Origin: an uncultured Ignavibacteria bacterium
Lineage (GTDB): Bacteria > Bacteroidota > Ignavibacteria > Tepidaquicellales > OLB5
DNA: 64,000 bases
Direction: 5' to 3'
Assembly (NCBI GenBank): GCA_937873695.1
Contig: CALMYL010000008.1
Location: 423,369-487,368, forward strand
Within the stretch, counting starts at the first letter, position 1. Each line of letters opens with the position of its first letter. The notes under the pieces were generated by a model that had not been told where the DNA came from, did no database searches, and worked only from the letters and a program-made list of their open reading frames with translations. Of this stretch, positions 8,945 to 53,956 are shown piece by piece. A program made the position numbers and the translations under genes.

Positions 8945-10957
8945 TTATTTAATTAACATCATCTTCTTTATGGCTGTATATCCCGGAGTTTCAAGTCTGT
9001 AGAAATAAACTCCGGTTGCAAGATTCTGCGCGTTGAAATCATATGTATACTTGCCGGCGTTATAATTGCCGTTAATTAGCTCAGCAACCTGCCTGCCGGC
9101 TATATCATACACTGCAAGTTTAACATTTCCCTGTTTGGATATATCGAACCTTATGTTTGTTGTCGGGTTGAACGGGTTCGGGTAGTTCTGGTACAGGTAA
9201 AATGATTCAGGTACTTCATTGCTGATAGTATGAATACCAATCACGTTATTGGTAAGTATACTTACTGTCCTGGTATGCAGCGGAGTGCCGTTAGGACCCG
9301 CGCCTTTTACAGTGACAGTATATGAACCCGCAGTAACGTTGCCTGAAGTAACAATTTTCATTCTAAGTGAATCAGGGTAGCTTGTTAATGAATCAAGCGG
9401 AGTATCGGTAGCCTTGTTTACAAATGAAACTGAAATTGTGCCCGTTGCGGGAGGCGGAGCCACTGTTGCGGTAAACTTAACGGAATTGCTGTAAAGTTTA
9501 ACTGCCGGCACAGATACCCAAACATATGAACTATCCTGAATGCTGTTAAGCGAATCAGTAGCGGGATTTACTTTCATAGCATAATCCGGGAAGTATGAAC
9601 CCATTGTTAAATAGTTGCAATTCCTTGCGTCATACCAAACGGCATATCCTGTTACCGGATTCGCTGTCATACCGTCATAATCACCCCTGTAGCAATTTTG
9701 ATTCGCGCCGCAGGCAGGGCAGGGATATGTAAATGTAGCATTAGAAATTCTCTGGTTTGGCGCAAATGTGGTTCCGCCTGTTGTTGAGTATGTTCCCCAT
9801 ACGCCTGTTGTATAACTGGCGGGATTCTCGCGGGTATCATACCATTTTATATATAACTTGCCTGTTGTTTTTTCACACCATATTGCAGGGAACCACTGGT
9901 CGCTTAACTCCGGATTAGCGTTATCATTTACCGTAATTTTTGATGACCAGTTAACCCCCTGATCAGAGCTGTATTGCAGGATTATATCCGGTTTATTTCC
10001 GTTACCGGAAGGAACATTAGAAGCATATACCAAATACAGCCTGCCCCTGTATGGACCGTTTGAATTATCCATTGCAATCATTGGATAGGGGCGGGTCCTG
10101 GCATTATTGATAACAAGTCTTGAAGCAGAGTTTAGTGTTCCAACATAGCCTGCAACGTTCAGTGCTGAGACTACTGAAAACGTAGCCCCGCCATCAGTAG
10201 AACGATGAAAAGTATAATTTACAGCGTATTGCTGACCCGTATTGGTTACATAAATAACGCATCCTCCGTTTGTACTGCCGTTTGGTCCGACTGCTATCAT
10301 TGTTCCCGGAACCGTATTGCTTGAGCTGTAAGTCTGTGCCCAAGTTAAACCCATATCGGTGCTTCTTGAAAAATTACCGGGTGTTATTGCGGCATATAAA
10401 TAGTTTGCATAAGGTCCTGTGCCTGTTTCTTCAGCGGCAACTGTATTCCTGTCATTCCCGGTGACAGTAAAAATCGGCGCTGTCCAGCTGTTACCGTTTG
10501 TGGTTGAAATGTAAATATACTGATTAGTAACACCTGAAGCGTATATTAAGGTACCATTAGCCAAATATGCTGTCCATGGGTCACAGCAGGTGCTTGGATG
10601 GTAGCTGGGTTGATTCAAAGTCCATGTCAATCCTCCATCCATTGTATTTCTTGCATTTTGCGGTGAGCCATTGGAGCCCATAAATATCTGCAGCGGATTT
10701 AATGGATTGTTTGTTACATGCTGCTCTGCTCCATCTACACCGATGTTATGGTTATCAAACCCATCTGCATCAGTAATCACATCTAAGCTGCCATCTGGCT
10801 CAAAAGCCTTGTGGTGGCTCATGTATTCCCAGGTGGGTTGGTCTATATTAGGATTATTATCGTCATAATTTCTGCCGATAAAATCCTGAGCCTGGAATAA
10901 CAAAACGCCTGCTGTTACAAAAAAACATAACAAAACAATTTTGGTAATATTTTTCAT
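8945..10957 (-). CDS. Secreted sialidase-like beta-propeller protein with T9SS sorting domain (copy 1)
   Basis: 670 residues. Signal peptide about 1-23. The body (about 60-470) has BNR/Asp-box repeats (STDGGATFSVV, STDMGLTWAQ, TTNGNSWTAP) typical of sialidase-like six-bladed propellers, with a Cys-rich insertion PCPACGANQNCYRGDYDG. A beta-sandwich module (about 480-575) and a sorting domain (NYPNPFNPTTNIRF to KKMMLIK) follow. The sialidase RIP/Arg-triad signature is not evident, so glycosidase activity is not claimed. It is about two-thirds or more identical by eye to the upstream gene at 11153-13174; the pair is a tandem duplication. Each copy has its own terminator. Confidence 0.82.
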   Translation of the reverse strand: MKNITKIVLLCFFVTAGVLLFQAQDFIGRNYDDNNPNIDQPTWEYMSHHKAFEPDGSLDVITDADGFDNHNIGVDGAEQHVTNNPLNPLQIFMGSNGSPQNARNTMDGGLTWTLNQPSYHPSTCCDPWTAYLANGTLIYASGVTNQYIYISTTNGNSWTAPIFTVTGNDRNTVAAEETGTGPYANYLYAAITPGNFSRSTDMGLTWAQTYSSSNTVPGTMIAVGPNGSTNGGCVIYVTNTGQQYAVNYTFHRSTDGGATFSVVSALNVAGYVGTLNSASRLVINNARTRPYPMIAMDNSNGPYRGRLYLVYASNVPSGNGNKPDIILQYSSDQGVNWSSKITVNDNANPELSDQWFPAIWCEKTTGKLYIKWYDTRENPASYTTGVWGTYSTTGGTTFAPNQRISNATFTYPCPACGANQNCYRGDYDGMTANPVTGYAVWYDARNCNYLTMGSYFPDYAMKVNPATDSLNSIQDSSYVWVSVPAVKLYSNSVKFTATVAPPPATGTISVSFVNKATDTPLDSLTSYPDSLRMKIVTSGNVTAGSYTVTVKGAGPNGTPLHTRTVSILTNNVIGIHTISNEVPESFYLYQNYPNPFNPTTNIRFDISKQGNVKLAVYDIAGRQVAELINGNYNAGKYTYDFNAQNLATGVYFYRLETPGYTAIKKMMLIK

Positions 10958-11152: not shown

Positions 11153-13174
11153 TTATTTCACTAATATCATCTTTTTTATGCTGGTGTAATCAGGTGTTTC
11201 AAGTTTATAGAAATAAACACCTGTTGACAAATTTTCAGCGGAGAAGTCAAATGAATATTCGCCTGCTGAGTAATTGGAGTTTACTATCTCAGCAACCTGT
11301 TTACCTGAAATATCGTATATAGCTAACTTAACGTTACCTGATCTTGCCAGATCGAACCTGATCTTCGTTGTCGGATTGAACGGATTTGGATAGTTCTGGT
11401 ATAAGAAGAACTTCTCGGGAATTGTTGAACTGTTATGGTTTATTGCAACCGAGCCGACATTCACAGTCAGAGTCCTAACATGAACAGGTGTACCGTTTGG
11501 ACCATTACCTTGTACTCTTATGGTATAAAGTCCTGAAGGAACTCCGCCGGAAGTTTTAATCCTTAATCTTAATGAATCAGGGAAGACTGTCAAACGGTTC
11601 TGCGCTGCAGGTGTTGTCCTGTTCAGGAAGGATAATGTCAATGTACCAGCACCCGGTGGATTAGTTACAGTTGCTGAAAAGAGTGCGGTATCAGTATATA
11701 ATTTTACACCGGGGATACTTACGTAAGCGAATCCGCTATCATTTGTACCATTTGAAATACCAACAACAGGTGTTGTTTTCATAGCAAAATCCGGGAAGTA
11801 TGAACCCATTGTCTGGTAGTTACAGCCTCTGGGATCCCACCATACAGCAAATCCTACTTTTGGATTAGCTGTGAAGCCGTCGTAATCTCCTCTGTAGCAA
11901 TTCTGGTTTGCCCCGCACGCTGGACAAGGATATGTCCATGATGCATTCGAAATTCTCTGGTTTGGTGCAAATGTGGTACCGCCTGTTGTAGAATATGTAG
12001 CCCATACCCCTGTTGTATAAGATGCCGGATTCTCACGGGTATCATACCATTTTATATAGAGCTTACCTGTGGACTTTTCACACCATATTGCAGGGAACCA
12101 CTGGTCACTCTGCTCCGGATTCGCATTGTCATTTACAGTGATCCTTGATGACCATGTAGCACCCTGATCGGTGCTGTACTGTAAAATAACATCAGGTTTG
12201 TTGCCGTTACCTGCAGGTACATTTGAAGCGTACACAAGATATAATCTGCCTCTGTATGGGCCATTTGAATTATCCATTGCTATCATCGGGTACGGTCTTG
12301 TTCTTGCATTGTTAATCACAAGTCTGCCAGCTGAATTCAATGTTCCCACATAACCCGCAACGTTTAAGCTTGACATAACCTGGAATGAGCCTGAAGCACC
12401 TCCGTTTGTTGAACGGTGGAATGTATAGTTAACAGGTACTGTTGAGCCTGTGTTTGTTACGTAAATTACACATCCGCCGTTTGTTGTACCGTTTGGACCA
12501 ACTGCAATCATTGTTCCGGGTACCGTATTACTTGATGTGTATGTCTGTGTCCATGTCAATCCAAGGTCTGTACTTCTCGAAAAATTGCCTGGTGTAATTG
12601 CCGCGTATAAGTAACTGGCAAATGGTCCGGTTCCTGTTTCTTCAGCTGCCAAAGTGTTTCTATCATTTCCGCTGACTGAAAGAACAGGCGAGGTCCAGCT
12701 GTTACCATTTGTAGTTGATCTGTAAATATACTGGCCTGATACTCCTGAACCATAGATCAACGTGCCGTTTATCAAATAAGCAGCCCAGGGATCGCAGCAC
12801 GTACCTGACTGATATGATGGGTTGTTAAGTGTCCATGTCAGACCGCCATCCATTGTGTTTCTTGCATTTTGAGGTGCGCCTGAACCATTTGCGCTTACAA
12901 AAATCTGTAATGGATTTAATGGATTATTGGTTACATGCTGTTCAGCGTAATCAATGCCGATATCATAATTATCATATCCTGAAAGGTCTGTAATTATATC
13001 GCCGGAATTATCATTCTGCTGAAATGCATGTAAATGAGATTTGGATTCCAGTGTCGGACGATCAACCAAAGGATTATTATCGTCAGAATTGTGGAAAATA
13101 TCCTGTGCCTGAAAAAGCATTACCCCCGCTGCTGTTAAAAAGCTCAGCAGCAGAATTTTCGAAAAATTTTTCAT
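11153..13174 (-). CDS. Secreted sialidase-like beta-propeller protein with T9SS sorting domain (copy 2)
   Basis: 673 residues, same architecture as the downstream copy: signal peptide, Asp-box propeller (STTNGNSWTSP, STDLGLTWTQ, STDQGATWSS), the Cys-rich YPCPACGANQNCYRGDYDGF segment, a beta-sandwich and the sorting domain ending KKMILVK. The middle of the propeller (AGYVGTLNSA to NARTRPYPMIAMDNSNGPYRGR region) is nearly invariant between copies, while N-termini and the beta-sandwich differ more. That suggests selection on the propeller face. Ligand is unknown. Upstream lies a perfect 18-bp palindrome (13268-13285). Confidence 0.82.
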   Translation of the reverse strand: MKNFSKILLLSFLTAAGVMLFQAQDIFHNSDDNNPLVDRPTLESKSHLHAFQQNDNSGDIITDLSGYDNYDIGIDYAEQHVTNNPLNPLQIFVSANGSGAPQNARNTMDGGLTWTLNNPSYQSGTCCDPWAAYLINGTLIYGSGVSGQYIYRSTTNGNSWTSPVLSVSGNDRNTLAAEETGTGPFASYLYAAITPGNFSRSTDLGLTWTQTYTSSNTVPGTMIAVGPNGTTNGGCVIYVTNTGSTVPVNYTFHRSTNGGASGSFQVMSSLNVAGYVGTLNSAGRLVINNARTRPYPMIAMDNSNGPYRGRLYLVYASNVPAGNGNKPDVILQYSTDQGATWSSRITVNDNANPEQSDQWFPAIWCEKSTGKLYIKWYDTRENPASYTTGVWATYSTTGGTTFAPNQRISNASWTYPCPACGANQNCYRGDYDGFTANPKVGFAVWWDPRGCNYQTMGSYFPDFAMKTTPVVGISNGTNDSGFAYVSIPGVKLYTDTALFSATVTNPPGAGTLTLSFLNRTTPAAQNRLTVFPDSLRLRIKTSGGVPSGLYTIRVQGNGPNGTPVHVRTLTVNVGSVAINHNSSTIPEKFFLYQNYPNPFNPTTKIRFDLARSGNVKLAIYDISGKQVAEIVNSNYSAGEYSFDFSAENLSTGVYFYKLETPDYTSIKKMILVK

Positions 13175-22030: not shown

Positions 22031-22816
22031 TTGTTAACCACTAACCAAATAAAACTATTCGCTTCGCTCAAACAGAAGAAATTCAGGCTTGAGCACGGCA
22101 AATATTTAATTGAAGGCTTTCATTTGATAGAAGAGTGCCTAAGCTCGCCGCATGAGCTGGAATATATCATTCTGCGAAATGAAGTTGACCTTCAGGGTCA
22201 TACAGCAATACTTGAAAAGATCGCGCAGAATAAAACCATTGTTGAGCCTTTGCCGGAAAAATTATTCAATAAGCTTACAGATACTGAATCCTCACAGGGA
22301 ATTGTTGGAGTAGTGAGCCGCCCGGAATATAACAAAACTAAATCATCCGGTGACCTGATAATCGCGCTTGATAAGGTTAGCGATCCGGGTAATTTAGGTA
22401 CAATAATCCGCACAGCTTATTGGTTTGGTGTTGACTGGATTCTGCTTAGCGATGGCTCGGCTGACCCGTATAATCCCAAAGTAGTTCGCTCAACACAGGG
22501 CGGAATTTTCCATACCAATATTACAGAAGATGCTGAGCTTGCAGCTGAGCTGAAGAAACTTGAATCAAAAGGGTACTCAGTTTACCTGTTTACACTTGAT
22601 ACCGAAAGATCATTATCTCAAATTAGCGAATCAGGCAAATCAGGGAAATCAGTGTTGGTGTTTGGCAGTGAGGCTCATGGGATTTCAAAAGAAATTTTGG
22701 ATATGGGCTTTGAGAAAGTGAAAATTGAAGGATACTCAGCTAGTGAATCACTCAACGTAGCAATTTCTACGGGAATTGCTTTATATGAGTTCAAACAGCA
22801 TGCAAAAGAAAAATAA
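22031..22816 (+). CDS. TrmH/SpoU family RNA 2-prime-O-ribose methyltransferase
   Basis: 261 residues. N-terminal substrate-binding domain (FRLEHGKYLIEGFHLIEECL), then the SPOUT knot with motif 1 LDKVSDPGNLGTIIRTAYWFG, motif 2 VFGSEAHGIS and motif 3 YSASESLNVAISTGIALYEF. It uses SAM to methylate a ribose in rRNA or tRNA; RlmB-like 23S rRNA methylase is most likely but not certain. Start codon is TTG 22031. An internal alternative is not obvious. The cluster of hairpin repeats lies immediately upstream and could affect its expression. Confidence 0.9.
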   Translation: MLTTNQIKLFASLKQKKFRLEHGKYLIEGFHLIEECLSSPHELEYIILRNEVDLQGHTAILEKIAQNKTIVEPLPEKLFNKLTDTESSQGIVGVVSRPEYNKTKSSGDLIIALDKVSDPGNLGTIIRTAYWFGVDWILLSDGSADPYNPKVVRSTQGGIFHTNITEDAELAAELKKLESKGYSVYLFTLDTERSLSQISESGKSGKSVLVFGSEAHGISKEILDMGFEKVKIEGYSASESLNVAISTGIALYEFKQHAKEK

Positions 22817-22867: not shown

Positions 22868-23677
22868 CTACTTAACAATAACCATTTTTTTTGTATCACT
22901 AAACCCTTCAGCTTCAAGCTTATAATAATACACACCGCTTGGCAGGTTAGTCGCATCAAAGATAGCTTCATAAGTATTTGCCTGCTGATATTCATCAATC
23001 AACACTTTAACTTCCTTTCCAAGCTCATCGTAAACTGTTAGCTTAACATTTCCATTTTTCGGCAATCCGTATCTTATTTTAGTTACGGGGTTGAACGGGT
23101 TGGGATAATTGTGGTAAAGTCTGTAGGTATTTGGTATCTCTACAGTTTGTATTCCGCCCGTTGGACAGGTAAATGTTAACTGAATGCACCAGGCATGCAA
23201 TGAACCTGTATCACCGGAATTACCCGTATCTGTTACAGCAATTTTCCAATATCCATCAGTACTAATGCCATTGAAGGGTGTAAGCGGACTTGATGGTCTG
23301 TAAGTTCCTGTAAACGGAGCTGTGCCGGATGAAAGAGGAATCAATGCAGAATCATCCAGTACCGTATTTATAAAATTATCTCCTGAACCGCCCACAAAAT
23401 TAACTATCAGTGAACCTGAATTTCCTTTTCGTAAATATACTCTTAAATCAGAAACCCATGTGTGATTGATGTTTGTCAAAATCGCATTAACATCATTTAC
23501 AATACAGCCGTTGCCAAGAAATACATATATAGAATCTGTGGCTGTTGAATGATCCAACACTAGTATATTCAGTCCGCTTCTGCAAAAACTCTGCTGTGAG
23601 CTCTGAGGCAGAACATCTTCAGTAAATATAGTAGCAATAACAAAACAAAATATAACCTGTAAGATTTTCATTCTCAA
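22868..23677 (-). CDS. Secreted P-domain protein with T9SS sorting domain (third of three)
   Basis: 269 residues: signal peptide 1-24, one proprotein-convertase P-domain (about 30-170; HTWVSDLRVYLRKG, GGSGDNFINTVLDDSA, PFTGTYRPSSPLTPFNG, GYWKIAVTDTG, GSLHAWCIQLTF) and a sorting domain (NYPNPFNPVTKIRY to KKMVIVK). P-domains normally sit beside a subtilisin or zinc protease; here they stand alone. This is the last gene of a three-gene tandem series with 8-base gaps. Probably a surface adhesin or calcium-binding module. Confidence 0.87.
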   Translation of the reverse strand: MRMKILQVIFCFVIATIFTEDVLPQSSQQSFCRSGLNILVLDHSTATDSIYVFLGNGCIVNDVNAILTNINHTWVSDLRVYLRKGNSGSLIVNFVGGSGDNFINTVLDDSALIPLSSGTAPFTGTYRPSSPLTPFNGISTDGYWKIAVTDTGNSGDTGSLHAWCIQLTFTCPTGGIQTVEIPNTYRLYHNYPNPFNPVTKIRYGLPKNGNVKLTVYDELGKEVKVLIDEYQQANTYEAIFDATNLPSGVYYYKLEAEGFSDTKKMVIVK

Positions 23678-23685
23678 AATTCCAT

Positions 23686-24483
23686 TTATTTAATTATGAC
23701 CATTTTTTTGGTATCGCTAAATCCTTCAGCTTCAAGCTTATAATAATACACACCGCTTGGCAAATTAGTAGCATCGAAGACAGCTTCATACGTATTAGCC
23801 TGCGAGTAACCATCAGCCAAAACTGCGACCTCTTTGCCAAGCTCATCGTAAACCGTTAGCTTAAGATTTCCATTTTTCGGCAAGCCATATTTTATCTTGG
23901 TTACAGGATTAAAAGGGTTTGGATAGTTTTGGTAGAGTCTGAAAGTATTAGGGATTTCTACTGTTTGTATACCGCCCGTCGGGCAAGTAAAAGTTAACTG
24001 AATACACCATGCTTTCAAAAACCCGGTATCACTTGTGGCGGTATCGGAAATAAGTATTCTCCAGTACCCATCAGTACTAATTCCGTTAAATGGAGTCAGC
24101 GGAAAAGAAGGTCTATATGTGCCGGTGAAAGGGGGTGTGCCGGATGCCAGAGGGATTGTGGCGGAATCATCTAGCTTAGTCCGTATAAAATTATCGCCCG
24201 AGCTTCCCACGTGATTTATTACCAGCGAACCGGCATTATCCTTCTGGAAATAAACATTAATATCAGAGATCCAGGTATGAACCAGGGTATCCATAATGAA
24301 ATTCACATCAGTTACCATACAACCGTTTCCTTTGTTGACAAGCATTGAGTCTCTGAGAAAACTGAAAGAGGGGATATTCATATTCAGCCTGTTCCTGCAT
24401 TGTGATTGCTGAATTGACTGCGAAAGTGAATTGAAAGAGATGATTAGAAGCAAAAAAGCAAAAATGTAAAATTTTAGTTTCAT
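23686..24483 (-). CDS. Secreted P-domain protein with T9SS sorting domain (second of three)
   Basis: 265 residues, same plan as its neighbours: signal peptide, P-domain (HTWISDINVYFQKD, GSSGDNFIRTKLDDSA, PFTGTYRPSFPLTPFNG, GFLKAWCIQLTF) and sorting domain ending KKMVIIK. Its P-domain is closer to copy three than to copy one: the CIQLTFTCPTGGIQTVEIPNT linker is shared by copies two and three only. No separate promoter is visible; it lies 8 bases after the stop of the 25289-24492 gene. Confidence 0.87.
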   Translation of the reverse strand: MKLKFYIFAFLLLIISFNSLSQSIQQSQCRNRLNMNIPSFSFLRDSMLVNKGNGCMVTDVNFIMDTLVHTWISDINVYFQKDNAGSLVINHVGSSGDNFIRTKLDDSATIPLASGTPPFTGTYRPSFPLTPFNGISTDGYWRILISDTATSDTGFLKAWCIQLTFTCPTGGIQTVEIPNTFRLYQNYPNPFNPVTKIKYGLPKNGNLKLTVYDELGKEVAVLADGYSQANTYEAVFDATNLPSGVYYYKLEAEGFSDTKKMVIIK

Positions 24484-24491
24484 AATACTTA

Positions 24492-25289
24492 CTATTTTAT
24501 TATTACCATTTTTTTTGTATCACTAAACCCATCTGCCTCCAGCTTATAATAATAAACGCCGCTTGGCAAATTAGTAGCATCGAAGACAGCTTCATACGTA
24601 TTAGCCTGCGCGTAACCATCCACCAGAACAGCGACCTCTTTGCCAAGCTCATCATAAACCATTAGCTTTACATTTCCATTTTTCGGCAATCCGTATTTTA
24701 TCTTGGTCATGGGATTGAACGGGTTTGGATAGTTTTGATAAAGCCTGAAGGTATTGGGGATTTCAATTGTATTTATTCCTCCCGTATAAAAATAATATTC
24801 CACAATTATACACCATTCATTTAGATATCCCGTATCACCCTGAGCTGTATCTGTGATGGTCAATATCCAATATCCCCAACCAGTAAACAGATTGTTAAAA
24901 GCTGAAAGAGGCTGGTTCGGTCTGTACGATCCCGTAAAAGGTGCTGTTGCACTGTCTATTTTTACAGCTGCTGAATCATCAAATACAGTTCCAATGAAGT
25001 TATCACCTGATCCGCCGGTTTTATTAAATAGCCTTACCCCCAACGTATCTTTTTTCAGATAAATTGAAAGGTCACTAACCCAACTATGAATCAATCTGTC
25101 TATTCGAACTTTAACATTCGTTATAACTGTTCCAGGGCCAATATTCACATTAATACTATCTTTAGCAATTGAGAGGTCGTTTATTTGAACATAGATCCCC
25201 GACCTGCAGAAGGGTTGCAACGGTTGAGAGCAAATAAAGAATGAATTTAAAATGATTGCTAAAGCAAAGATGTAATATTTTGTTTTCAT
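24492..25289 (-). CDS. Secreted P-domain protein with T9SS sorting domain (first of three)
   Basis: 265 residues: signal peptide 1-21, P-domain (HSWVSDLSIYLKKD, GGSGDNFIGTVFDDSA, PFTGSYRPNQPLSAFNN, GYLNEWCIIVEY) and sorting domain (NYPNPFNPMTKIKY to KKMVIIK). It is first in the operon. Its P-domain is the most diverged of the three, while the sorting domains are nearly identical between all three. This looks like duplication followed by divergence of the ligand face, or exchange between sorting domains. Confidence 0.87.
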   Translation of the reverse strand: MKTKYYIFALAIILNSFFICSQPLQPFCRSGIYVQINDLSIAKDSINVNIGPGTVITNVKVRIDRLIHSWVSDLSIYLKKDTLGVRLFNKTGGSGDNFIGTVFDDSAAVKIDSATAPFTGSYRPNQPLSAFNNLFTGWGYWILTITDTAQGDTGYLNEWCIIVEYYFYTGGINTIEIPNTFRLYQNYPNPFNPMTKIKYGLPKNGNVKLMVYDELGKEVAVLVDGYAQANTYEAVFDATNLPSGVYYYKLEADGFSDTKKMVIIK

Positions 25290-25514: not shown

Positions 25515-27326
25515 ATGCCCGAAAAACTCGGTTTTACTTTCTATTTCTCAATAATCCTCTTGCTATTAGCTGTGCATACAGATACCAATTCCCAGAAAAT
25601 ACAGGTTGATGACGGCGAGTCACCGGAATACTATTCCAATATTGTAAAGCTCTACGCTCCCAGTGAAGATGCCTTCATTGCGCTGCAGTATCTTGCCGCT
25701 CCCTCAGTATTCAAACATGACTGGAAAAAAGCCATTAAGATATACGAAGATAATAAATTTAAATTCCTCGGACTTGATGAACGTATCGACAAAATAATTT
25801 CTATTCTGAACGATTCAGCCAAAAATATCAGGCTCTACAATATGGGCGGTAATATTAACTCGCTGGGTAAGGAGTACAGCCCGGTAATTTCGCCTGACGG
25901 CAAAAAAATATATTTCACCGGGCGCGATAGGGAAGATAACGTAGGAGGTGAAGATATCTTTATTTCGCAGTACGTTAATAACCGCTGGATAATCGCCAAA
26001 CCGCTTATTGGAAAGATAAACACCGAAAGCAATGAGTACATTAACAGTATTTCCGCTGACGGGAATACGCTCGTACTTTTCGGGAACTATTTAAACGCAC
26101 TCGGACGCGGAGATAACTTCTACACTGAAAAAACTAAGAATGGTTTCACAGAAGTGCAGCAGTATCCTGAACCGATAAATTCCAAGTGGTGGGATGCCGA
26201 TGCATACCTGACTGCTGACGGTAAAGCGATAATTTTTTCCAGTGAGAGGCCCGGCGGAGTGGGCGATTATCACCCCAAAGGCGATTATCATCACGGCATG
26301 TATTGGGGCAACACTGATCTTTATGTAGTGCTTAAAGAGGCCGATGGCTCATGGAGCAAAACGGCAATTAACCTGGGTGATTTTATCAACACTCCCTATA
26401 CTGAGCGCACTCCGTTCCTTCATCCCGATGGTAAGACATTGTACTTTTCTTCTGATGGTCACACGGGACTCGGTAAAAGCGATGTGTTTAAATCCGTGAG
26501 GCTAGACGATTCTTCATGGACTCACTGGAGTGAACCGGTAAATCTGGGCAAAGAGATAAACACACCAAACGAAGACTGGGGATTTAAGATATCCACCGAT
26601 GGCAAGCAGGCGTATTTTTCAACAGTAAATGATATGGGTTTTGGCGAAGAGGATATTTATTATGTCGAGCTCCCGGAAGAAGTGCAGCCTGTCAGCGATG
26701 TTGTGACCATCAACGGCAAGGTGCTGGATGAGAATGGTGACCCGGTGGAAGCAACTATTAAATGGGAAGACGTTGAACTGAAAAAGGAAGTTGGTGTTGC
26801 CAAAACTGACCCTGTGACAGGCGAGTATTTCATAGCGCTGCCTACAGGCAGGTATTACGCTTATTACGCTGATGTAAAAGGATTTTATTCAATTGTTAAC
26901 TACCTCGATCTGACCGCAGCAAAAGCATTCGAGCAGATAAGCACTAATATGAGCGTTATATCTGTTGAGGAGCTCAAGAACTCAGGTAAAGCAATTAAGA
27001 TAGAGAACATATTTTTTGATTCAGGTAAGTTTGACCTGAAGGAAGAATCACATGAAGCATTGAACCTGCTTTACCGCTTCATGCATGCAAATCCCGATGT
27101 AATGGTTGAAATTAACGCGCATACCGATGATGTTGGCAGCGACCATTTTAACCAGGATCTCTCCGATAAACGCGCAGCTTCAGTGGTAAGTTACCTGGTG
27201 AGTATCGGTATAAATCCCGCTAACATTATCTCCCAGGGATTTGGTGAAACACAGCCCGTTGCCCCAAATGATACTGAAGAGGGCAGAGCCCTCAACCGCA
27301 GGGTTGAGTTCAGGCTGCGGAAGTAA
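25515..27326 (+). CDS. PorE-like OmpA-family protein (propeller, regulatory domain, OmpA C-terminus)
   Basis: 603 residues. Signal segment 5-25. A short helical domain (PSEDAFIALQYLAAPSVFKHDWKKAIKIYE) is followed by PD40/WD40-like propeller blades (about 110-395; SPVISPDGKKIYFTGRD, NSISADGNTLVLFG, PFLHPDGKTLYFSSDG). A carboxypeptidase-regulatory-like domain (about 400-480; NGKVLDENGDPVEATIKW) and an OmpA C-terminal peptidoglycan-binding domain (about 490-603; NAHTDDVGS, LSDKRAASVVSYL, NRRVEFRLR) complete it. This order resembles PorE, the T9SS-associated peptidoglycan anchor. A paralog follows at 27675. Confidence 0.85.
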   Translation: MPEKLGFTFYFSIILLLLAVHTDTNSQKIQVDDGESPEYYSNIVKLYAPSEDAFIALQYLAAPSVFKHDWKKAIKIYEDNKFKFLGLDERIDKIISILNDSAKNIRLYNMGGNINSLGKEYSPVISPDGKKIYFTGRDREDNVGGEDIFISQYVNNRWIIAKPLIGKINTESNEYINSISADGNTLVLFGNYLNALGRGDNFYTEKTKNGFTEVQQYPEPINSKWWDADAYLTADGKAIIFSSERPGGVGDYHPKGDYHHGMYWGNTDLYVVLKEADGSWSKTAINLGDFINTPYTERTPFLHPDGKTLYFSSDGHTGLGKSDVFKSVRLDDSSWTHWSEPVNLGKEINTPNEDWGFKISTDGKQAYFSTVNDMGFGEEDIYYVELPEEVQPVSDVVTINGKVLDENGDPVEATIKWEDVELKKEVGVAKTDPVTGEYFIALPTGRYYAYYADVKGFYSIVNYLDLTAAKAFEQISTNMSVISVEELKNSGKAIKIENIFFDSGKFDLKEESHEALNLLYRFMHANPDVMVEINAHTDDVGSDHFNQDLSDKRAASVVSYLVSIGINPANIISQGFGETQPVAPNDTEEGRALNRRVEFRLRK

Positions 27327-30815: not shown

Positions 30816-31151
30816 TCATTTAATAATTACCAGCTTTTTCTGATCTACAAAATCACCTGCGGTTAATTTATAAAAATATACTCCGCTTGATACCTGATTA
30901 CCATATTCATTTGTTCCGTCCCACAGTACTTCTTTTAATCCTTTGCTCTCAAAACTATCAACAACTTCTTTAACCAACTGTCCAAGGATATTATAAATCG
31001 TCAAAGTAACTTTAGAATCGTATTTTAATGTATATTTTATTTTAGTAACCGGATTAAACGGATTTGGGTAATTTTGAGATAATGAATATTCAAATGATGT
31101 ATCAATAAAGACAATTAAATCTAAAAGTGGCTTTATGTAAAGTGGTAGCAT
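30816..31151 (-). pseudogene. Orphan T9SS sorting-domain fragment
   Basis: 111 codons whose last 85 are a complete sorting domain (YSLSQNYPNPFNPVTKIKY to KKLVIIK, including YNILGQLVKEVVD and GVYFYKL). The first 18 residues (MLPLYIKPLLDLIVF...) are hydrophobic but do not form a normal signal peptide with cleavage site, and no cargo domain is present. It looks like the 3-prime end of a cargo gene whose body was deleted. The upstream region 31152-31310 has no recognisable rest of the gene. Confidence 0.7.
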
Positions 31152-50990: not shown

Positions 50991-52049
50991 ATGAAATCTG
51001 AAGAATACAATTTACCACCTTGTTCGATACCTAAACCAGGCGAAAGCGTTACTTGGTTCGAGGGGAATAGACGAATGGAAGGAATTCTTTTAGGATATGA
51101 TATTGACGAAAAACCTCTGATTCTGAACAAATTTAACGTACAAACTAAAGCAAATTCATTTAGGTTAATTCGTGTTACTAACCCCTATGATAGAATTGAT
51201 CCGAACTGGAAAAGACTTCCAACCAATGGAAAAATTATTAAACCTCATAGTACTATTATTTCAGCTTTTAAGAAAAAAGTCTATGAAAGAATTCCGCCAG
51301 GACCAAGTTATATTGAATTAATCTCGGAAATATATTATAGAGGTTTTGAAGTATACCTAGTAGGTGGTACTGTGAGGGATGTATTACAAGAAAATACATC
51401 ACAAGATATTGATATAGTAACCGCAATGCCTTTAAAATCATTTATTCCTTTGCTAAAATCTATGTTTAATGAAAATGTTCATTATTATAATAAGACTGGT
51501 TTTGTCAGAATTGGGGGAGCACCAGCATCTGGTGATCCTTTTATAGATATTAAAAACTTCCCATTGTATAATCCAGGTGGTCAAACTGCGTTATTTGGTT
51601 CCGATATTAATATAGATCTAAAATTTAGAGATTTTTCGTGTAATGCAATCTATTATGACCCTATAAATGAAGTGCTTATCGATCCAGCTGGTTCAGGTAT
51701 TGATGATGCAATGGATAAAAAACTAATTTTAGTTAAAGATGTTGATATCCAAGGTCCTCTGCATCATACTGCAACGGTAGTCATTCGGTTGATAAAATTT
51801 GTGGGACGTGGATATAATTGCCCGAAGGAAACTATGCTAGAAATCAGAGATAAATTCTGTCCACTCCTTTCAACAATGAGTGCCGCAGAAAGAATTAGGT
51901 ACATGAATGCTCAAATTTTTAATAAGAACAGAGAAGGCAAACGGGTTGAGATTTATGAAGCCTTTGCGGAAACTATGAGTGAATTGGGTTTAGAAGAAGA
52001 GTATCATAAGTATTTTAAGCCAATTGAAGAACTATTAGATCTAGGATAA
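50991..52049 (+). CDS. Shortened CCA-adding/poly(A)-polymerase-type nucleotidyltransferase in a cassette with NACHT
   Basis: 352 residues. Residues 1-95 form a beta-rich domain (SVTWFEGNRRMEGILLGYD, FNVQTKANSFRLIRV) reminiscent of an SH3/Tudor barrel. Residues 105-310 have class II CCA/PcnB-type signatures: YLVGGTVRD (GG125-126, R129-D130), DIDI (D139, D141), RDFSCNAIYYDP (213-224), VVIRLIKF, SAAERIRYMN (297-306). The usual C-terminal body and HD domains are missing and the protein ends at 352. It transfers a nucleotide to an unknown acceptor. Stop overlaps the NACHT start by one base. The region is AT-rich compared with gyrA. It is not a normal housekeeping CCA enzyme, though a truncated copy cannot be excluded. 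Confidence 0.82.
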   Translation: MKSEEYNLPPCSIPKPGESVTWFEGNRRMEGILLGYDIDEKPLILNKFNVQTKANSFRLIRVTNPYDRIDPNWKRLPTNGKIIKPHSTIISAFKKKVYERIPPGPSYIELISEIYYRGFEVYLVGGTVRDVLQENTSQDIDIVTAMPLKSFIPLLKSMFNENVHYYNKTGFVRIGGAPASGDPFIDIKNFPLYNPGGQTALFGSDINIDLKFRDFSCNAIYYDPINEVLIDPAGSGIDDAMDKKLILVKDVDIQGPLHHTATVVIRLIKFVGRGYNCPKETMLEIRDKFCPLLSTMSAAERIRYMNAQIFNKNREGKRVEIYEAFAETMSELGLEEEYHKYFKPIEELLDLG

Positions 52050-53956
52050 TGCAAAAATTTTTTTATTTACCAGTTAAACATATTATTGATAATTATTATC
52101 AAAAAGATAATATTTTTGATGATGATATCCATACTTTCGACTCCCAAAATTACAGCAAAATTATAGAGAAATACTTTAAGAAAATATATGGAATTGTTAA
52201 ACTAGAATCAGGTAATTATGAGACAGAAATCTTCAAGCCAATTTCTGATAAATATGACATTTCTTTTTGTTTAGTTGATACTGAGTTTTATCCTAAGAAT
52301 CAAAATAAAATATATGTCGAGGAAGATAAACAAAACTTTCTATACGATAAACTAATAACCAATTGCAGATACTCTGAAGGAATAGTCCCTGAGCAATCAA
52401 TATACATAGAGTCTTTTTTTGTTACTCCAAAAGTTAAAAAAACATTTAATGATAAGGTTTATTTTTATTCGAAAGATATCTTCCATGACAGCTGTATTAT
52501 TACAGGCAGTGCTGGGTCAGGTAAGACTACACTTCTTCGAAAACTAACACTTGAATATGCGAAGCAGACATTTGATGAAGATAATAAGATTAATAAAATT
52601 CCTATATATATTCAATTAAGATATCTAAACGATAAAGACGTGAGTCTTGAGCAATTTATTAAGAATATTATTACAAGTATAGTTGATAAAAGTATATTAA
52701 CGAATGATGTAAATTTTATTAACTCAGGGAAAATTCTTTTGTTGCTTGATGGTATTGATGAAATTAGATATCAGAATCTTGACACCTTTTATGAAGAATT
52801 ACAGAATTTCAGAAATAAATATCCTTTAACGACATTTATCTTGTCATCCAGACCACATGAAAAAATTAAAAATCTGCAGAATTTTGATAGCTTTGAGCTA
52901 TTATCTTTTGATCTTAACCAAATAAGAGAGTTGACTTATAAAAAACTAACTAAAAATAGTTGGAAAAATTTCATAAGCATTTTAAAATACTCTTCTGAAA
53001 TTATTAATATTCTTGGTAATCCATTACTTTTAACAATTACTCATTTTCTTTTTGCAAATAAAGTTGTAATTCCTACCAATATGGGTCAACTTTTGAAAGA
53101 ATTAGTTGAAATTATGATTAATAAATGGGATATGAATAGAAGTATAAAAAGAGAGTTTTCAGGGATTGATTTTAATTCTATTCGTATAAATAATTTATTA
53201 GGGGCCATATCTCATTATTGTCAAATTAATAATAAAACGATTTTTACTGATAGTGAGGTCATTCCTATTGTAAAAGATTTTAAAACAGCAAATGAAGTTT
53301 CCAGTTTTTTAACATACTTGGAATTATCGACAGGTGTTATTGTTAAATGTGATAATAAAAATTGGCAGTTCTCCCATAAATTGTTACAGGATTATTTTTG
53401 TTCTAACTACTTGGTTGAGGGCATAAGCACGATTGAGGACAAAATTTTTATTAATAGAGAATGGCAAAGGGTAAGTTCATTAATAGCTGGCCTCAGTTCT
53501 GAACCTGAATACATTCTTGATAAGGTGTTAGAAAAGTATAGTACTGATATAATCTTGAAATTAGAAAACCAATTTTCTATTCTAAACGAATCATTACTTA
53601 TAAAAGATAATGATATACTTAAGGTCATTAAAAACCTAGATGTATATTTGACCACAGTTGAACTGCAATCAAAACTTGTAGAGTCAGATATCTGTTTAAA
53701 TGAAAGTGAAGTTCTTGTGAAAAATCATAAAGTTAGCAAAATTATACTCTCTCTTAAGAATATTTTTTTAGAATTGTTTAAAATACGGTATACTAACTAT
53801 GACACTATTCTTAGTCATGGATTAACTTCTTCAAAGTCTTTAATTTTAAGATCCATTAACAAGCTTATTAATAAACAAGGAAATATAAATTTGTTAATAG
53901 AGGAATCTACTGCTTTGTTTGTTGTTAATGAGGAATCACCAGAAATTGACTATTAG
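52049..53956 (+). CDS. NACHT-type STAND NTPase
   Basis: 635 residues. An unrecognised N-terminal region (1-140) is followed by a NACHT NTPase: Walker [10 protein letters not shown] (153-161), Walker [13 protein letters not shown] (228-239), sensor-like LSSRPH (266-270), NPLLLTI (324-330) and a winged-helix-type [15 protein letters not shown] (441-455). The C-terminal 170 residues are helical without obvious LRR, WD or TPR. Bacterial NACHT proteins act as signal-sensing switches in antiphage defence; here no separate effector domain (nuclease, TIR, protease) is visible, so the partner nucleotidyltransferase may be the effector or sensor. Start ATG overlaps the partner stop (TAATG). Codon use is strongly AT-rich. 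Confidence 0.85.

Follow-up and report, generated by a model that had tools for sequence, protein, structure and literature searches.

The locus examined here raises the question of why three neighbouring genes encode small proteins with much the same C-terminal sorting domain (CTD) and clearly different P-domains, and whether selection on the sorting domain or recombination between the genes accounts for this pattern. The three open reading frames, P1, P2 and P3, lie on the minus strand and fill positions 22868-25289 of the window (the whole stretch of 64,000 nucleotides that was analysed), with a spacer of 8 bp between neighbours. P1 (22868-23677) has 269 aa from its listed TTG start, an ATG being present two codons downstream at 23671, and P2 (23686-24483) and P3 (24492-25289) have 265 aa each. 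Each frame comprises a putative signal peptide, a P-domain and a T9SS type A CTD, as read from the ORF list, Pfam and NCBIfam, with the AlphaFold model in addition for P2 and the alignment for P3. The P-domains, with approximate limits, cover about aa 32-171 of P1 (23165-23584) and aa 28-166 of P3 (24792-25208) by Pfam and alignment, and about aa 29-166 of P2 (23986-24399) by model superposition. The CTDs, placed by Pfam and NCBIfam, are found at 22871-23140 (P1), 23689-23958 (P2) and 24495-24764 (P3), all on the minus strand; the last two are homogenised with each other by pS and silent-codon comparison, and that of P1 is less homogenised in the pS comparison. A SpoU-type RNA methyltransferase gene (22031-22816, plus strand) and a PD40/OmpA protein gene (25515-27326, plus strand) were recognised by Pfam and locus comparison as the conserved flanks of the array site. 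The head-to-tail unit is probably one operon, which would be read from 25289 to 22868; promoter and terminator scans gave chance-level results only.

The sorting domain is recognised above cut-off in the three proteins, which score 40-42 bits with Por_Secre_tail (PF18962, Pfam cut-off 27) and 46-48 bits with TIGR04183 (NCBIfam cut-off 23). For P_proprotein (PF01483, cut-off 21 bits), P1 and P3 reach 27.4 and 22.5 bits, and P2, with 20.8 bits, is short by 0.2. No protease or further domain was found in P1-P3 by Pfam or NCBIfam, leaving a mature chain of P-domain and CTD behind N-termini that are hydrophobic on reading by eye and that form a helix at residues 2-16 in the P2 model. The AlphaFold model of P2 (pLDDT 82, 10-row alignment) has a pTM of 0.54, as would be expected if the relative orientation of its two domains is uncertain. 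Its residues 21-167 superpose on the P-domain of furin (Z 14.9; 121 aligned residues with an rmsd of 2.0) and its residues 181-264 on the T9SS CTD of mirolase (8qb1, Z 8.5). Two-domain glycoside hydrolases, ranked at the top by Foldseek, were discarded, as these matches spanned both domains at an rmsd of about 14, a composite effect, and the domains were separated by VIA-align 2. When solved structures were searched by sequence, P2 and the array alignment yielded no more than weak matches, confined to the region of the CTD. The sequence-only reading, which had described three tandem proteins of P-domain and T9SS sorting domain without protease, is thus confirmed by Pfam, NCBIfam and the P2 model. 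In an alignment of 13 array proteins, a second cysteine pair (Cys58 and Cys171 of P1) is complete in 8, absent in 5, P3 among them, and never represented by a single residue; since the two residues are always present or missing together, a second disulphide is suggested. The source genome, that of an uncultured bacterium placed in class Ignavibacteria by its named relatives, also encodes a PorU sortase (NF033707, 922 bits, cut-off 420).

The same reading had taken as its premise that a P-domain normally accompanies a protease, and this fails in the genome under study. Among 13 other P-CTD proteins that our searches brought up, a set that may not be complete and in which some N-termini are cut by the locus edge, only 4 carry a protease domain (3 subtilases and 1 C25). 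The others combine the P-CTD end with LamG-like domains (3 proteins), propeller-like repeats (5 proteins, some of the repeats being below Pfam cut-offs) or BNR and CARDB domains (1 protein), one of the 13 (L198, 6703-8316) having been recognised by likeness and not by Pfam. Because a protease is present in just 4 of 13, the P-CTD end appears, from its domain partners, to be a general C-terminal cassette of T9SS cargo in this lineage and not the mark of a protease. When the class was scanned with PF01483 (E <= 1e-6), 27 of 119 genomes contained matches, and every match listed lay in a frame of at least 528 aa; as this profile scores the array subfamily poorly, the scan is no measure of how rare stand-alone P-CTD genes are. 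A separate stand-alone P-CTD gene is found away from the array site in two relatives (L189, 10119-10910; L190, 8517-9317), where it adjoins a DUF4292 gene in L190 and an ORF of the same size in L189.

The two halves of the array proteins differ strongly in their divergence. For the pairs P1-P2, P1-P3 and P2-P3, amino acid identity is 67, 49 and 46% in the P-domain and 89, 86 and 92% in the CTD. The earlier description of nearly identical sorting domains beside diverging P-domains therefore holds for the proteins and not for the CTD DNA, where identity is 80-88%. With 150 CTDs of the source genome scored from 330 candidates, the closest CTD outside the array has just 70% DNA identity, so that the P1-P3 CTDs are more alike than the general family likeness of the scored CTDs would account for.

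Codon alignments of the 13 array proteins, which come from six genomes, were used to compare silent sites within and between genomes. Mean pS within genomes (12 pairs) was 0.752 for the P-domain and 0.481 for the CTD, and between genomes (66 pairs) 0.714 and 0.657, respectively, many of the P-domain values being saturated. When genome labels were permuted among the ten sequences from the multi-copy genomes, three in number, the between-minus-within difference of pS was +0.085 for the CTD (p 0.004) and -0.052 for the P-domain (p 0.98), and the fractions of identical silent codons agree, the CTDs being alike within genomes. In 9 of the 12 within-genome pairs CTD pS is lower than P-domain pS with a bootstrap value below 0.01, the exceptions being P1-P2, P1-P3 and G005_c-d. 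Within the source window P2-P3 is the only significant pair (bootstrap values of 0.18 and 0.37 for P1-P2 and P1-P3), and most of the case for conversion rests on the relatives G005 and G011. The two domains also have incompatible histories in AU tests: the P-domain tree is rejected by the CTD alignment (p 0.0004 with 10 sequences, 0.0009 with 13) and the CTD tree by the P-domain alignment, and grouping by genome is not rejected by the CTDs (p 0.50), whose tree has low support with many nodes below 60. Since silent sites are homogenised too, the CTD likeness goes beyond purifying selection; moreover, CTD pS reaches 1.0 against G001, which indicates that these silent sites are not frozen by themselves. 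These data support the 3-prime gene conversion put forward in the sequence-only reading, the divergence being unequal along the gene. The closest within-genome CTD pairs have pS values of 0.34-0.45, comparable to the 0.36-0.58 of flanking genes between these species, so that the most recent CTD exchanges date from about the time when the species separated. Orthologue CTDs are not always more diverged than the corresponding P-domains, G005_b/G011_c showing the opposite.

The diversification suggested earlier for the P-domains receives no support. They fall into types that extend across species, {P1, G011_c, G005_b}, {G005_c, G011_a} and {G005_a, G001_s}, and the gene-wide omega of orthologous P-domains between species is 0.06-0.11. 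For P1 and G011_c the P-domain pS is 0.38, flanking genes having 0.36-0.52, and the collinear order B-A-P1 is common to the source genome and G011, the order of P types being different in G005. The P-domains are thus old, stable paralogue types under purifying selection. The leading genes of the multi-copy arrays (L181, 6634-7467; L182, 213-1034; window, 24492-25289) have their 5' end in common, with a different P type in G005; as this is one case only, we claim no position effect.

A second tandem array, whose proteins combine a propeller-like part, a P-domain and a CTD, is present in the source genome (C17, L198), G005, G011 and G003, and 14 of its genes were used, the first gene of G011 being cut by the contig. 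In this array the CTD of gene 1 stays distinct and those of genes 2-4 are homogenised. Genes 3 and 4 of the source genome share 99% aa identity in the CTD (pS 0.28) and 64% in the P-domain (pS 0.72), and the corresponding values are 97% (0.38) and 60% (0.72) for the G003 pair and 94% (0.43) and 59% (0.69) for the G005 pair, the G011 pair being weaker with 86% (0.49) and 61% (0.75). Over the whole of this array, permutation within and between genomes gives no significant result for CTD pS (p 0.51), as gene 1 retains its own CTD; in AU tests the swapped trees were again rejected. A tandem pair of BNR genes in the window (8945-10957 and 11153-13174), taken as a control, shows no homogenisation: the paralogue CTDs have 70% aa identity and a pS of 0.77, and the CTDs of orthologues in the source genome and G011 have 89-92% and 0.63-0.67. 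Conversion of all CTDs is ruled out by this pair. Elsewhere in the window, an ORF of 111 aa (30816-31151, minus strand), barely more than a sorting domain, adjoins a BNR cargo gene and is a remnant or truncated cargo gene.

Comparative inspection of the site between the SpoU and OmpA-PD40 genes in 15 genomes of the family (G000-G014, G000 being the source genome) revealed that the array varies from 0 to 4 copies at one syntenic position, which bears out the variable copy number anticipated for related genomes and is at odds with a constant one. Four copies are present in G005, three in the source genome and at least three in G011, whose contig starts there; G009, G001 and G003 have a single copy, and in G002, G004, G007, G008, G010 and G014 the array is absent and the flanks adjoin each other. 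The site occurs on two contigs of G006, neither of which carries a P-domain copy. Two genomes were unreadable at the site, the flanks lying on separate contigs in G013 and not being found in G012, and the relatives represent few species with mostly fragmented genomes. In a phylogeny built from seven proteins of the flanks, the genomes with three or four copies form one clade, whose sister clade holds one single-copy and one zero-copy genome, and the remaining single- and zero-copy genomes are interspersed; this distribution fits one gain followed by several losses as well as repeated gains. On one contig of G006 (C350; L233, 4948-6351), a gene for a 467-aa BNR-type T9SS cargo protein occupies this position between the SpoU and OmpA-PD40 genes, and since the array site holds another cargo gene in this genome, it may be a landing place for such genes.

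Two further features of the window were noted. A gene for a 635-aa NACHT-domain NTPase (52049-53956, plus strand; PF05729, 52 bits), possibly a defence gene, lies in a stretch with a GC content of about 27% against about 40% in most of the window; at its ends it touches ORFs that look by eye like a nucleotidyltransferase and a threonine aldolase, and it gave no PADLOC match. At the window edge, positions 1-170 hold a 78-bp tandem repeat in 2.2 near-identical copies.

On balance, we propose as the most probable explanation, with reasonable though far from full confidence, that P1-P3 belong to an array of minimal T9SS surface cargo evolving at two tempos, its P-domains being kept by purifying selection and its 3' CTDs recombining within the genome. 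What was computed for this array comprises its architecture, the P2 fold, the syntenic copy variation, the incongruent P-domain and CTD histories, the excess of CTD silent-site likeness, the purifying selection on the P-domains and the presence of PorU. From their domains, the proteins would be exported by Sec, would then cross the outer membrane by means of the CTD and would be anchored on the cell surface by PorU. Each would expose one furin-type P-domain, a surface module without catalytic function that most likely binds a ligand or the matrix. A review describes the C-terminal domains of collagenolytic proteases from bacteria, among them the P-domain, as aiding stability or collagen binding (PMC11294657). 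Homologous recombination between the CTD-coding 3' ends of neighbours, by gene conversion or unequal exchange, would keep the address tag uniform, and the CTD would serve as a recombination handle by which P-domain cassettes could be added, dropped or reordered; the range of 0 to 4 copies at a fixed position would follow if the same CTD exchanges caused the copy-number changes. The data fit conversion and unequal exchange alike; unequal exchange would also account for changes of whole units and for the altered order of P types in G005.

Tandem duplication without recombination, in which the secretion machinery would hold the CTDs alike while the P-domains drift, is a reading that we consider unlikely. 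A CTD omega of about 0.05 and the lack of a significant silent-site excess in P1-P2 and P1-P3 would suit it, but homogenisation within genomes extends to the silent sites, each of the two domains is incompatible with the tree of the other, saturation of CTD silent sites is seen elsewhere (with G001) and the BNR pair, although it also bears CTDs, is not homogenised. Somewhat more probable, though still unlikely, is a fairly recent duplication of whole genes, CTDs included, followed by the import of divergent P-domains at the 5' side. Similar CTDs beside saturated P-domains would be expected from such replacement, as would an arrangement of P types in G005 unlike that of the source genome and G011 and, in one case, the common 5' end of the leading genes of G005 and G011 despite their unlike P types. 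However, orthologous P-domains are retained from species to species with a divergence like that of the flanking genes (P1/G011_c), and the order B-A-P1 is common to the source genome and G011; it thus looks as if the P-domains had stayed in place and the CTDs had been overwritten.

Two other hypotheses concern the role of the proteins more than the exchange of their ends. The P-domains could act in trans, by stabilizing surface proteases encoded elsewhere or presenting substrate to them, and the subtilases and C25 protease with P-CTD ends of their own in this genome, together with the known stabilization of proteases by P-domains (PMC11294657), would be in line with this. Yet these proteases already possess a P-domain, the array has no protease gene next to it and the majority of P-CTD partners in the genome are not proteases, so we regard a trans role as about as improbable as duplication without recombination. 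That the genes are decaying C-terminal ends of larger cargo genes after loss of N-terminal domains is very improbable: many larger proteins do end in the same cassette and several genomes have no copy, but all 13 array genes have intact frames and their own putative signal peptides, omega has been low over long times and up to four copies are retained. A wider possibility, advanced only tentatively, is that T9SS sorting domains generally serve tandem cargo arrays as recombination handles: the conserved 3' CTD would be overwritten again and again within a genome, and unequal exchange would allow whole cargo cassettes to be gained, lost or rearranged while the address tag is kept, a modular re-stocking of the surface. 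If this were general, sorting-domain phylogenies would be unusable for tracing cargo genes, and the gain or loss of surface proteins would be open to cargo arrays by their very structure. For the tandem cargo studied here, conservation of a sorting tag by selection can be told apart from its homogenisation by recombination.

In the open-licence literature, consulted as titles and abstract openings, we recognised no paper dealing with T9SS cargo that consists of a lone P-domain or with sorting-domain conversion; type A cargo of the T9SS is known, as is the fold of the P-domain, and the evolutionary finding is real and modest. The array resembles other T9SS type A cargo (TIGR04183/PF18962) in its putative signal peptides and C-terminal sorting domains, with PorU in the genome, and differs in that the cargo part is a lone P-domain and the CTDs are homogenised. 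By the P2 model, the beta-sandwich fold is that of the furin P-domain (PF01483; about 121 residues, Z 14.9) and of the P-domain of the Aeromonas sobria serine protease (Z 11.9); unlike these proteases, the array proteins have no catalytic domain, aligned identity is 15-18% and some members have a probable second disulphide. The propeller-P-CTD array of the source genome shares the tandem P-CTD cassette and the 3' homogenisation in genes 2-4, whereas it has an additional N-terminal propeller-like domain and a gene 1 with its own CTD. The gingipain/HagA proteins of Porphyromonas gingivalis are likewise T9SS surface proteins with common modules and recombination between genes and strains (PMC5266723), but it is the adhesin modules that are shuffled there, whereas in the present array the cargo domains are distinct and the sorting domain is homogenised.
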